Made by a program: the position numbers and the translations under genes | Origin: Prorocentrum cordatum | Taxonomy: Eukaryota; Sar; Dinophyceae; Prorocentrales; Prorocentraceae | Direction: 5' to 3' | DNA length: 64,000 nucleotides | Assembly (NCBI GenBank): GCA_963575745.1 | Contig: CAUYUJ010017838.1 | Location: forward strand, 404,585 to 468,584 | Part shown: piece after piece, positions 28,895 through 49,774 of the stretch | How positions within the stretch are numbered: the stretch's first letter is position 1 | Layout: each line of letters starts with the position of its first letter | The notes under the pieces: generated by a model | The model's database searches: none | The model's input: the letters and a program-made list of their open reading frames with translations, nothing else | What the model was told of the DNA's origin: nothing

Positions 28895-31022
28895 CTATCG
28901 CTGCAAGTTTTTTTCCACCGCCGCAAGTGAAGGGCCTTTCGCAAGCGAATATTCCCCGCCTGCATCCAGAAACATCCGGGCTGCCGCGTCCTTCGCGTCG
29001 CCCCGAAGGTGTTCCTTGACGCCCATGCGAGCTAGAGCCATGGACAACAATCGCTCGTCGAAGCTCCAACAAGCACGCGGGGGGGGCCCATCGAGCAAGT
29101 CCCACGCGCAGGCCCAGGCGCGGAGCACATCAGTTTTGGTGGCCCCTGCATCAAGCAGCGCCCGGGCGGGCTTAGCATCGAAAGACAAGATGCTCGCGAC
29201 AGAGTCTGCGACGCCCCGCCTCCTCTCAGACACCGCGCAGGCTAGGAATAGACCTCCTGCGCGCCATGCGCGACAGCAGTTACTCATTGCGCCTGCGGCG
29301 GGAGCACTCACCCAGCGCAAGATGTCCTGGAGAACCCACGCGGCGATGGAGACGATGGCTGGCTTTGCTGCGGTTTTACTTTTGACCCTCGCATGACAGA
29401 GAGTCTCGCCTGAGGGCACTCTCGCGCCAGGGGCTGCGACTGGAGCAACCAGCCCCAAATCTTGCGCGATGGTCACTGGGGGCGCAGGCGGCGGGGACAC
29501 CCTGCGAGGAACAGCTTCTTTGTTCTTGCACAAGCACAGGACGTCGACCTCCCACAGACGAGGAAAGAGGCCAAAGGGAGGCACCGACGCCGTCTCCCAG
29601 GGGCGTCGCGCCAGAGGCTGCGATTTCGACGGCCAAAATGGCGCAGGCCGCCTCCGCCTGCTCGTAGGAATCAATACCTGCGTCGGCCAGGCCCTCTTCA
29701 GCGCCAGACCCCATGCCAGCGAGCAGGGTCCAATCTTTGTCCTCGACGGGCACGTGCAGGCCCTCCGCTTTGAACAGCCAACGCACAAACCTTGAGAGCA
29801 AGAAAGCGGAACGCAAATCCGTTCAGAGGGGAGGGGGAGGAATGGGGGAGGGACGAGAGGGGGCGCCAGGCAGGAGGCGGCGCCGACGGCGACGACGACG
29901 ACGACGACGACGACGACGACGACGACGACGACGACGACGGCGGCGGCGGCGGCGGCGGCGGCGGCGGCGGCGACGACGACGACGACGACGACGACGACGA
30001 CGACGTCCCCGACGACCATGACGACGACGACGACGACGCCCCCTGGCTCGTCGGAAGGCCGACCCCGCTCGCCCCGACCCTGGTGCGGACCGGCGGCCGA
30101 GCGAGCTAGGCGACGGGGAAAGGGCGACGTTTCGCTCTTTTTGGGGCCTCCTGGGGCGCTCTCGTCGCCACGGCTGGATTCCCCTTTACGCTTTCGTCGA
30201 AGAGGACCCCAATGCCCATCCCAAGGGCCGCAATCGCGATGCCCCGCGTGGGATGCTTTCGGCGCCCAAACCGCCAGACTCGATTGTATGTGGCGCCGCC
30301 GGCCCAAAGCTTTATCTCGTGCTCTCGCAGGGCGCGATCGGCGTCCCTGAACGTGGGCTTCGAGCCGAACAGCTTTGCGAGCTCTACGCAAGCTTCCCGG
30401 AGTTTGCCATTCTGCACGTCAGGCAAGAGAGTCTGGAACTCTTGTTCACCAGTGCGGCGACTAGCGGGGATCATGTATGGGTGATGCGCAAAAGTCTCGC
30501 CAGGGGCTGAGATTTGCATATTTTCCTGTGCTTGCGGGATACTAACTGAACATCGTGCTCCGCACGATTTCCGACGACCTGAAGACCGCCCATGTCCGCC
30601 TCCATCGAAGACCACGCGCCCTTTAAGATCTCAGCTCTGTCTGCGGAGACCGCGCGCTCAAAGCGGGATAATGCCTTTGACAAGTGTCCAAGAAGTGAGC
30701 TCGCCGACCATCGCCAGTAGCACAGATAGACCACCGCTAAAAGCTCCAAGCGCACTGCAGTCGCGCCAGAGGCTGCGGCCCGAAGATACTGGCCGCTCGC
30801 TACGCCGACGCGTATATCATGTCTGTGAAGCAAAGTGAGGGCGAAACCGCCGGCGACGTATGCGCCTATTTTCTCCGCCGGCTTGCCCAGCACATCGTTC
30901 ACCCTGGCCACTTTCCAGTGCTGCCCTGGCCGAGGCGCGCGGCACTGCACGCACTGCGAGTTCTTGCAGCTCCCATAATGGTCTCTGGCGCGCTGCTTGC
31001 ACGTCTTGCATTTGAGCACCAT
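28895..31022 (-). CDS. gene D: three-exon protein with N-terminal cysteine cluster
   Basis: The start is ATG 31,022 (MVLKCKTCKQRARDHYGSCK), directly after a copy of the dispersed motif. Exon 1 opens with a probable zinc cluster (CKTC, CKNSQCVQC), then helices (VNDVLGKPAEKIGAY; FRDADRALREHEIKL), and changes frame near 30,535. Exon 2 starts at 29,790 after TTTCTTGCTCTCAAG (RFVRWLFKAEGLHVP), changes frame near 29,570, and ends at 29,312 before GTGAGT. An 87-nt in-frame intron (29,311-29,225) leads to exon 3 (RRRGVADSVASILSFDAKPARALLDAG), which has an ankyrin-like ALLDAGATKTDVL stretch and stops at 28,895. Five motif copies lie in the exons or at the start. Function unknown. The exon 1 donor near 30,110 is not fixed. 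Confidence 0.6.
29225..29311 (-). other. 87-nt intron of gene D
   Basis: GTGAGT donor at 29,311-29,306 after ...DILRW; acceptor TCTGAG at 29,225. It keeps phase 0 and is a multiple of three with no stop, so retention would also give an open frame. Confidence 0.5.
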
Positions 31023-31038
31023 CGCGCCAGAGGCTGCG
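29423..31038 (+). repeat. dispersed CGCCAGAGGCTG motif, 5 copies (gene D)
   Basis: Copies start at 29,423 (AGGGG variant), 29,607, 30,496 (AGGGG variant), 30,762 and 31,022. On the coding strand three give AASGA or AAPGA and one QPLA. The last ends at the proposed ATG of gene D. Confidence 0.85.
29795..30105. repeat. intronic GAC/GGC trinucleotide repeat
   Basis: GACGAC triplets (29,890-29,938), GGC triplets (29,938-29,972), then GACGAC again to about 30,045. The run sits between two coding exons of gene D and ends near a good 3' splice site, so it is most likely intronic. Confidence 0.75.
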
Positions 31039-49000: not shown

Positions 49001-49774
49001 TACAGTCGGCTGAGCAGACATGTCGGAAATCTTTCTCTTTTTTCTCCCACAGGCCACGCGGTGCGACTCGGAAGTGCTATGTCGCTGTATGAGCATCCTG
49101 GCGTGAAAACCCGCCCTCGGGCGAATCTGGAACTGGGCAAACTTTGAAAACCTGGCGCCGTCACACTTGTTGCCGGAAGCCGCAAACTCAGCGCATATCC
49201 TGCACCCGAGGCCCCATATACCACGGTTAACGCCTCGTGTCAACCAAGAACGGCCCTCGTAGAGGGTACACGCCTCGTAGACCTTGGGGCGCTTCTGCAC
49301 ATCGCACCGAATGCAGAAACCCTTGCAAGCCGCATGGCGTTCCAGATGCTGCGCCTCGGAAGCGGCCCCGTCAAACACCTGGAGCATGTCATCCGAAAGG
49401 GGGCGCTTTCGCGACAGAGTCTGCGAACCCTTCCCACTTTCGGGAACCTTCCGTGCCAACGGCGAGGAAATCAGAGCGGGAGCTTGTGACCTCTTCGCCG
49501 CTTTGACCGCCGCGCATGACCGTGGCCTCCGCGGGAGAGGCTGCGACGACTTCCTTAATGGACTCAGCTTTCGCGGCGAGGAGCGCCCAACACATTGAAA
49601 TGTGTTCCTCCTGTAGCTTGGCATGATCGAATGCGATGTCTTCTGTGCCTCGGCCTTCCTCCGAGGCGCCCGCGTGGCAGTCGGCTTCCGCCTCCCCTCA
49701 GCGCGCATGGGTTTCACCCGCTTTCCCGCCAAGGGCTGGTGCCCGAAACGAAGAGGCGGCGCAAGCAACACCAT
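46012..49774 (-). CDS. gene H: zinc-finger and transposase-like protein, one frame change
   Basis: Read from ATG 49,774 (MVLLAPPLRFGHQPLAGKRV) to TGA 46,012, with one frame change in a six-base C/G run at 48,421-48,426. N-terminal part: basic, then CKGFCIRC and GIWGLGCRICAEF...RFSKFAQFQ...HSTSESHRVA, resembling a TTF-type zinc finger. Then SISLAIDESKYRKVVRFRADLPAV, DFEEDHAVTAVKQLDAFLTKFCKP and, after the frame change, ADGASKERRSVFLAARELFPN and IRDPARAIRFAVKSMHRDDVFGEVWRELFDDRHALVPGLMHSNKLHNLL. The order of acidic residues and the DES / ADGA / IRDPA blocks loosely recalls hAT-like transposases, but the assignment is tentative. The C-terminal 250 residues are Arg/Ala-rich with an aliphatic segment. 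Ten motif copies are read in all three frames. No intron is needed, and a possible spliced-leader relic lies upstream, suggesting an mRNA-derived copy. Confidence 0.65.
46125..49740 (+). repeat. dispersed CGCCAGAGGCTG motif, 10 copies (gene H)
   Basis: Copies start at 46,125, 46,561, 46,922, 47,254, 47,709, 48,097, 48,405, 48,985, 49,529 (variant) and 49,725. Coding readings: PPAAGG, TQPLAR, ASLWRE, SQPLAG, AASGA, PQPLAG, HSLWRA or QPLAC (at the frame change), PQPLAC, SQPLPR and HQPLAG. Confidence 0.9.

Follow-up and report, generated by a model that had tools for sequence, protein, structure and literature searches.

What is repeated when one short motif recurs through several adjacent genes of a dinoflagellate, the encoded peptide or the nucleic acid itself, and what keeps it there? 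The question is raised by a stretch of 64,000 nucleotides (nt) from Prorocentrum cordatum, contig CAUYUJ010017838.1, positions 404,585 to 468,584 (hereafter the window, its positions counted from its first letter). An earlier note on this DNA had reported about 38 copies of a short motif. The count obtained here, 35, is close, although the set begins at 28824, before the start of 29423 given there; likewise, the 24 exact 12-mers are concentrated as described, although the unit is a co-varying hairpin of about 16 nt rather than a plain 12-mer. Because the paired letters change together, the folded RNA rather than the encoded protein seems to have been preserved by evolution. The motif is probably a hairpin of sense-strand messenger RNA (mRNA), held under selection in several copies per message and in at least three dinoflagellate gene families.

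The 10-mer CCAGAGGCTG matched the window 24 times, always on the plus strand, which is antisense to the minus-strand genes, while the mean over 100 dinucleotide-preserving shuffles was 0.36 and the largest count 3. The exact 12-mer was likewise found 24 times, rising to 33 on the minus (coding) strand when one mismatch was allowed; one single-mismatch match lay on the opposite strand, at 21876. A covariance model trained on these 33 copies, which match by construction, recovered 34 copies at an expect value (E) below 0.005 and a 35th at 0.039 (49404), the new ones being 29189 and 49404. All 35 model copies fall within 28.8-49.4 kb of the minus strand, inside four adjacent same-strand genes (D, F, G and H). 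A weaker 36th candidate was found at 36581 (E 0.075); outside 28-50 kb of the window the best match reached only E 0.42, and no match in the gaps between genes reached E<0.1. Apart from the variable N and N', the 12-mer and two bases on either side of it are strongly conserved, the composition of the 33 copies being c N C A G C C t C T G G C G N' g. The A at the fourth place is present in 33/33 copies and follows a C in 32/33 (an NNCA context), and the base next on the 3' side of the unit is A in 18/33.

The conserved unit of about 16 nt has inverted, co-varying flanks and folds as cN-C-(bulged A)-GCC-NCT-GGC-G-N'g. In 21 of the 24 exact copies the dinucleotides that flank the 12-mer are Watson-Crick complementary to each other, compared with approximately 6% of random window positions, and the outer arms differ among copies (cg..cg, cc..gg, ct..ag and ca..tg). 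The pair between positions -1 and +12 forms in 33/33 aligned copies (GC 14, CG 13, AU 2, UA 2, GU 1, UG 1), which has a chance of about 1e-14 given a background of 0.377 for a pairable couple at that distance. Its covariation score was 0.219 against 0.067 +/- 0.017 in 500 shuffles, none of which scored as high, and sliding the partners by 1-3 columns gave at most 0.067. A sequence-free descriptor (six pairs, a one-base 5' bulge and a three-base loop) matched the minus strand 45 times, 39 of them at 28-50 kb, and the plus strand 20 times, none of the latter having the hairpin core; it added 29195 and 49410, where the inner C-G pair is replaced by A-U in a compensatory change. The minimum-energy fold included the hairpin in all four copies tried. 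Compensatory base changes that keep the pairing, as expected of a cis-acting RNA hairpin, were found in the window DNA and, by way of their proteins, in homologues. An Rfam scan of 22 kb at E up to 1 returned 10 matches, none above its gathering score and none on a copy (8 weak microRNA matches at 28.4 kb and 2 isolated weak ones). At the variable arm base the genes have different preferences (g..c in 6/7 copies of D and 6/8 of G, c..g in 9/11 of F, mixed in H); possible causes are the reading frame, conversion between copies and readers specific to a gene. The copies are as follows.

28824..28839, minus strand, gene D hairpin, 55 nt past the stop codon at 28895
29195..29210, minus strand, gene D hairpin, core C-G to A-U (compensatory), read ADSVA
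29423..29438, minus strand, gene D hairpin, loop CCT, read AAPGA
29607..29622, minus strand, gene D hairpin, read QPLA
30496..30511, minus strand, gene D hairpin, arms ct..ag, loop CCT
30762..30777, minus strand, gene D hairpin, read AASGA
31023..31038, minus strand, gene D hairpin, read AASGA
34597..34612, minus strand, gene F hairpin with one broken pair, about 250 nt past the stop codon at 34866
34820..34835, minus strand, gene F hairpin, 30 nt past the stop codon at 34866
35112..35127, minus strand, gene F hairpin, read PASGG, common to one homologue
35280..35295, minus strand, gene F hairpin, read PASGG, common to two homologues
35942..35957, minus strand, gene F hairpin with one broken pair and one wobble
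36111..36126, minus strand, gene F hairpin, read PASGG, common to homologue P0173
36500..36515, minus strand, gene F hairpin with one broken pair and one wobble
36629..36644, minus strand, gene F hairpin, read QPLA
36862..36877, minus strand, gene F hairpin, read AASGA
37114..37129, minus strand, gene F hairpin, read PASGG
37334..37349, minus strand, gene F hairpin, read QPLA
41325..41340, minus strand, gene G hairpin, 33 nt past the stop codon at 41374
41623..41638, minus strand, gene G hairpin, read AASGA
41794..41809, minus strand, gene G hairpin, loop GCT, read AAAGA
42085..42100, minus strand, gene G hairpin, read AASGA
42529..42544, minus strand, gene G hairpin, wobble arm g..t, read AASGV
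42871..42886, minus strand, gene G hairpin, arms ct..ag, read SASGE, switched to AASGA in homologues
43456..43471, minus strand, gene G hairpin, read AASGA
43984..43999, minus strand, gene G hairpin, read AASGA, SASGE in homologue P0010
46126..46141, minus strand, gene H hairpin, loop GCT, read PAAGG
46562..46577, minus strand, gene H hairpin, read QPLA
46923..46938, minus strand, gene H hairpin, read SLWR
47255..47270, minus strand, gene H hairpin, loop ACT, read QPLA
47710..47725, minus strand, gene H hairpin in a linker, read AASG, QPLA in homologues P0076 and P0081
48098..48113, minus strand, gene H hairpin, loop CCT, read QPLA
48405..48420, minus strand, gene H hairpin, arms ca..tg, read QPLA
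48984..48999, minus strand, gene H hairpin, arms ca..tg, read QPLA
49410..49425, minus strand, gene H hairpin, core C-G to A-U, read QTLS

Most copies lie in protein frames, as had been claimed, but those at 28824, 34597, 34820 and 41325 lie past stop codons, hairpins following the stops of F, G and D at 30, 33 and 55 nt, respectively. In F and G most homologues that reach this end stop at about the same residue, while the stop of D is taken from the open reading frame (ORF) alone. The stretches past the stops are presumably 3' untranslated region (UTR), and copies there can have no peptide role, unless unseen splicing extends the frames. The host genes comprise the following ORFs, with lengths in amino acids (aa).

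28895..30418, minus strand, gene D 3' ORF, 507 aa stop to stop, hairpins in several frames, no Pfam family
30471..31295, minus strand, gene D 5' ORF, 274 aa, weak match to the zinc-binding Zn_Tnp_IS91 (E 4.8e-5, below the Pfam cut-off)
34866..36326, minus strand, gene F ORF, 486 aa, at least 4 homologues, one named Prorocentrum cordatum, PASGG sites common to homologues
35833..37506, minus strand, gene F upstream ORF, 557 aa, overlapping the 486-aa ORF in another frame
41374..42366, minus strand, gene G 3' ORF, 330 aa, family 1 C-terminal methyltransferase-like part, one in-frame stop from the 5' ORF
42367..44385, minus strand, gene G 5' ORF, 672 aa, family 1, at least 72 homologues
46012..48465, minus strand, gene H 3' ORF, 817 aa, family 2, at least 100 homologues
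48389..49909, minus strand, gene H 5' ORF, 506 aa, one protein with the 3' ORF in homologues, frame broken near 48.4 kb

Genes G, H and F represent families 1, 2 and 3, with 176 homologous proteins in all; the 72, 100 and 4 found are lower bounds from searches that scored approximately 8,000 candidates each. Homologues often carry the element at matching sites. Motif-encoded peptides numbered 226 against 7.2 in shuffled proteins for family 1, 435 against 13.2 for family 2 and 11 against 0.2 for three proteins of family 3 (the fourth, of fewer than 380 residues, was omitted), and 8 of the 175 counted homologues had none. Several family 2 sites are kept, as QPLA or RPLA, in relatives about 35% identical. 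The earlier observation that one DNA sequence is read as QPLA, SLWR and xASGx was borne out within a single gene, H, in which motif DNA is translated as QPLA, SLWR and AASG. In a variable linker, where the window and several homologues have xASGx, homologues P0076 and P0081 have QPLA, and this frame switch is direct evidence that the recurring unit is a nucleotide element, not a peptide. Exchanges of AASGA with SASGE and of QPLA with QTLS, as well as frame switches, occur at the same or neighbouring aligned columns; an N-terminal column in the region of the 49410 copy holds QPLA in 8 rows and QTLS in 3. Furthermore, peptides of the three sense frames numbered 197, 41 and 302 against 2.8, 1.0 and 6.5 in shuffles, while the three antisense readings were not enriched (3, 6 and 4 against 3.5, 14.8 and 3.8). 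The antisense readings are stop-free, so the sense bias is not forced by coding, and since the homologues are separate genes, transcription sense can be told apart from chromosome strand, which is impossible in the window alone. The proposal that DNA or RNA, and not the peptide, is repeated is therefore strongly supported by the co-varying arms, the sense-only orientation and the copies past stops, and the same observations favour an RNA-level signal among the options that had been put forward.

The pairing can also be followed through the proteins. Frame 2 codons of the element are NCA GCC NCT GGC GN'G, for which pairing predicts the outer residues A..A, S..E, P..G and T..V, and the peptides change as predicted (AASGA, SASGE, PASGG, TASGV). 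Watson-Crick combinations made up 272 of 305 xASGx contexts (172.6 expected if independent; 13 wobble, 20 other) and 154 of 177 contexts with A, P or T, i.e. loop variants, as the middle residue (76.2 expected; 7 wobble, 16 other). Six shifted-offset controls showed no association (observed/expected 62/61.7, 60/57.5, 20/24.6, 31/31.6, 9/11.8 and 9/14.2). QPLA occurred in 198 contexts in 172 proteins, of which 32 were excluded because they contain serine, a residue with an ambiguous second codon base; among the other 166, 107 were Watson-Crick (neighbour-codon second bases c-g 69, g-c 16, a-t 14, t-a 8), 18 wobble and 41 other. RPLA contexts without serine paired in 34 of 43 cases. Site by site, 68 of 97 cells in QPLA columns pair, 5 wobble and 24 do not, with serine counted as whichever base pairs, and single columns hold several pair types (six of seven columns contributed cells, the remaining one being gap-split). 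Of six family 1 columns two were gap-split, and the others were mostly GC, with UA 1, UG 1, AU 3, one mismatch and many rows off-form. In QxLy contexts the combinations P..A (197) and T..S (11) far outnumbered T..A (2) and P..S (3), as a change from C-G to A-U predicts. AVSDA-like contexts (V..D 23) were considered as a further compensatory pair and discounted, these contexts being ordinary protein stretches.

Copies are evenly spaced in genes H, F and G, with mean spacings of 249-410 nt. In lists hand-picked from 12-mer and descriptor matches, that for F including a weaker copy at 35643, spacing was 307-579 nt in H (coefficient of variation (CV) 0.19; 0/20,000 random placements as even, P below 5e-5), 129-389 nt in F (CV 0.31, P 0.00025) and 171-585 nt in G (CV 0.36, P 0.009). 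Among the 46 family 2 proteins with at least six sites, 91% were more even than the random median, with a median percentile of 0.07.

Several observations weigh against a selected, evenly placed mRNA hairpin. Pairs changed on both sides showed no excess (2 against 2.0 in shuffles), and single copies folded only 0.9 to 1.7 standard deviations better than shuffles (z -0.9 to -1.7). Homologue codons were inferred from peptides, and the protein counts come from related homologues that are not independent. The latter is underlined by a control with other middle residues, which was also associated (120/190 against 60.9 expected), its commonest contexts being mostly a few homologous protein motifs. 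Little pairing was found in KPLA contexts (3/16) and in other xPLA contexts without serine (34/98), 12 of 26 cells of QPLA column 1155 were unpaired, and the minor QxLy pairs A..P (9) and S..T (4) were no commoner than unrelated cells. Some SLWR sites overlap a W-R that is conserved in motif-free relatives. As for spacing, the gaps of 184-889 nt in gene D look uneven, D having been omitted from the spacing test, and family 1 was only moderately even (71% of 21 proteins with at least six sites, median percentile 0.21). The G and H ORFs of 672 and 817 aa are unbroken over 2-2.5 kb, whereas D and F are each split over two frames, making introns possible in both of the latter. Finally, a 766-aa ORF at 7200-9497, at most a candidate gene, has no copy, suggesting that the hairpin may be no general mRNA feature.

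Of the alternatives, a short repeat at the protein level, with the QPLA, SLWR and AASGA peptides themselves under selection, is hardly credible: W-R is kept at one SLWR site in relatives lacking the rest of the motif, yet three unrelated peptides, the frame switch at one aligned linker, residue pairs that follow the pairing and copies beyond stops all contradict it. An element acting solely as DNA, such as a cruciform or a chromatin binding site, is improbable. Although an inverted repeat folds as DNA too, and strand and transcription are inseparable in a window whose host genes all run in one direction, the homologues encode only the sense reading (0/3 antisense peptides enriched), and copies follow genes just past their stops with none at E<0.1 in intergenic gaps. 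The earlier note had also offered a tiny mobile insert, the footprint of an excised element or an introner remnant, to be recognised by insertion columns with duplicated flanks. One sequence in many scattered copies would suit such an origin, and the four-base palindromic surroundings CNN'G would resemble a chosen target, but this origin now appears very improbable. The flanks cc..gg, ct..ag and ca..tg are inverted, not duplicated (cg..cg fits both). At ordered sites (columns 387, 599, 1100 and 1272 of alignment A5 and 845, 1155, 1296 and 1480 of A3) motif-free homologues carry residues, with at most one partly gapped row, which argues against insertion; in linkers and in the N-terminal region of family 2, frequent gaps make this comparison uninformative, and some homologues scored motif-free carry a pairing loop variant such as AAAGA or SATGE. 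Matching residues at matching sites in orthologues had been named as evidence against the note's own proposal and were indeed found; they speak against recent insertion, not against an RNA signal. Of the marks of a transposon, target-site duplication was not seen, the arms other than cg..cg being no direct repeats, and both orientations were seen neither in the window nor in homologues; introns with end inverted repeats and short direct repeats, as for introners, were likewise not seen, the copies lying in open frames and past stops. In the excerpted text of PMC10666404, P. cordatum introners are described within introns and the acceptor motif is reported as AGG. An exon-junction scar found no support, the sense motif holding no AGG and the homologues being gap-free at ordered sites. 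Ribosomal bypassing or hairpin excision, suggested by the frame change at 48407, was rejected because the window lacks the stretch that separates QPLAC from SFAADGA in homologue P0073, which makes it a deletion accompanied by a frame change.

Two further alternatives accept a role for the RNA. The hairpins may mark the RNA for recognition or packaging by a mobile or virus-like multi-gene element to which the four neighbouring genes belong and whose own protein coats or moves the RNA, a scenario we consider unlikely. It would account for the confinement of 35/35 copies to four adjacent same-strand genes with none elsewhere in the 64 kb, for the multi-copy state of families 1 and 2 in P. cordatum, and for the weak transposase zinc-domain match of gene D; even spacing also suits coating. 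However, neither the ORFs of D, F, G and H nor eight homologues had a Pfam match to a capsid, integrase or polymerase, family 2 has no known fold match, and no relatives were found in viral contigs (families 1 and 2), phages (family 1) or prokaryote genomes (family 2). The P. cordatum matches of the families also lie on different contigs, with no sign of joint travel. Slightly less likely again is an RNA modification signal, in which the bulged A would be methylated to 1-methyladenosine (m1A) or edited, slowing translation or changing Q to R. Dinoflagellate m1A has an NNCA context and likely represses translation in coding regions, as far as the excerpted text of PMC11549392 reports. The invariant bulged A, its preceding C and the occurrence of RPLA beside QPLA in relatives agree with this; yet NNCA carries little information, the same excerpts place m1A mainly in 3' UTRs, and RPLA relatives imply a G in the bulge while 34/43 still pair, so that the A is not essential there.

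For a selected sense-strand mRNA hairpin, the following mechanism may be proposed. The lower stem would vary freely provided that pairing holds, followed by the C-G pair and the bulged A (G in some relatives), and above the bulge by the GCC/GGC upper stem and the NCU loop. Point and compensatory mutation would create and maintain the hairpins, with the reading frame merely tolerating them. RNA hairpins that bind proteins usually combine a stem of any pairing sequence with an invariant core, loop and bulge, and the fixed parts here are in our judgement probably read by a putative sequence-specific RNA-binding protein. The recurrence of the hairpin along each message points to joint action of several copies. 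Tentatively, loading of such a protein at intervals might organise the messenger ribonucleoprotein (mRNP) of these transcripts, e.g. for export or stability. On average a P. cordatum gene has 11.7 exons of 240 bp (excerpts of PMC10666404), and against this average the long unbroken ORFs of G and H make splicing-free assembly of an exportable or stable mRNP an attractive function. More speculatively, these transcripts could form a class of mRNA with a built-in ruler, a near-identical protein-binding hairpin recurring at roughly regular intervals from the coding sequence into the 3' UTR. Spacing would then be selected as well as structure, and the hairpins would be a splicing-free stand-in for the exon-junction marks on spliced mRNAs.

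By kind, the element would be a cis-acting mRNA hairpin, whose multiplicity, frame-independence and spacing exceed those of the examples known to us. The MS2 coat-protein hairpin is a small stem with a bulged A, and packaging signals of RNA viruses are dispersed and degenerate in coding RNA, whereas here the genes are nuclear and algal and no coat protein or viral gene was found. Rickettsia palindromic elements are in-frame repeats inside protein genes, but they are mobile inserts of about 100-150 nt, and homologues of the P. cordatum hairpin genes show no insertion at ordered sites. The yeast ASH1 zipcodes are also several protein-read RNA hairpins in one coding region, few in number and in one gene, compared with 7-11 near-identical copies per gene in several unrelated genes here. 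The human CAR-E has a short linear consensus without a conserved hairpin. According to the excerpted review, CAR-E resembles the hairpin as a short element in intronless human mRNAs, thought to recruit export proteins, with its functional relevance called unclear (PMC6199362); being human, it is likened to the algal element by description, not by sequence. Dinoflagellate introners share short inverted repeats, many copies and a location in genes, including those of P. cordatum, but in the excerpts of PMC10666404 (see also PMC7789003) they are introns with end repeats, while the hairpins lie in exons, measure about 16 nt, occur in sense orientation only, show no duplicated flanks and stand at sites shared by homologues.

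Among the papers listed by word searches of the literature none described the hairpin element, and among the matches listed for the 12-mer and 10-mer text on both strands, none was about dinoflagellates by title. Dinoflagellate genes are described as controlled mainly after transcription (excerpts of PMC12787238), and our literature searches turned up no cis-acting mRNA element of this kind. A structure that is present many times per message, in any frame and evenly spaced, in unrelated families would offer a handle to fish for its binding protein, and mRNP organisation in dinoflagellates would become testable. Furthermore, where peptides such as AASGA, QPLA or SLWR recur in dinoflagellate proteins, they may be by-products of an RNA structure and not motifs of the protein itself.

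With regard to the host genes, the ORF at 42367-44385 had as its best match a P. cordatum protein, 100% identical over 89% of the ORF. Homologues named P. cordatum numbered 12 in family 1 and 3 in family 2, which marks the families as multi-copy. Compared with P0073, gene H has a deletion just 3' of a hairpin (48389-48465), and gene G has an in-frame stop at 42364-42369; both genes look like decaying copies of these families. Pfam gave no match at E<=0.01 for the G, H and F ORFs and, among the eight homologues, only weak sub-threshold matches in two. No fold match in PDB at E<=0.001 was found for family 2 (best 0.13) or family 1, whose best matches are methyltransferases (Foldseek, C-terminus: Mbo45V Mod, probability 0.99, E 8e-3; METTL3-METTL14, 0.98, E 0.09). 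The C-terminus of family 1 thus resembles a methyltransferase by predicted fold, and the fold matches of either family do not account for the motif.

Other features of the window were also recorded. Between the hairpin-bearing genes lie arrays of a 22-bp unit (TCTGGTCTACTTTTGGGCGGGG-like) of approximately 0.8-1.2 kb each, at 31309-32323, 38531-39704, 40177-40990 and 44389-45484, of which the two at 38.5-41.0 kb are oppositely oriented and form a large inverted repeat. The ORFs at 26454-27722, which had no Pfam match, and 33207-34631 are, as judged by eye, presumably pieces of retrotransposon reverse transcriptase/endonuclease. The 766-aa ORF at 7200-9497 is on the minus strand and has a gene-like composition, with no clear Pfam match (DUF4882 E 0.018, below cut-off). 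At 60018-62525, arrays of CTTGGGCC-type units occur three times with a higher-order period of 106 bp.

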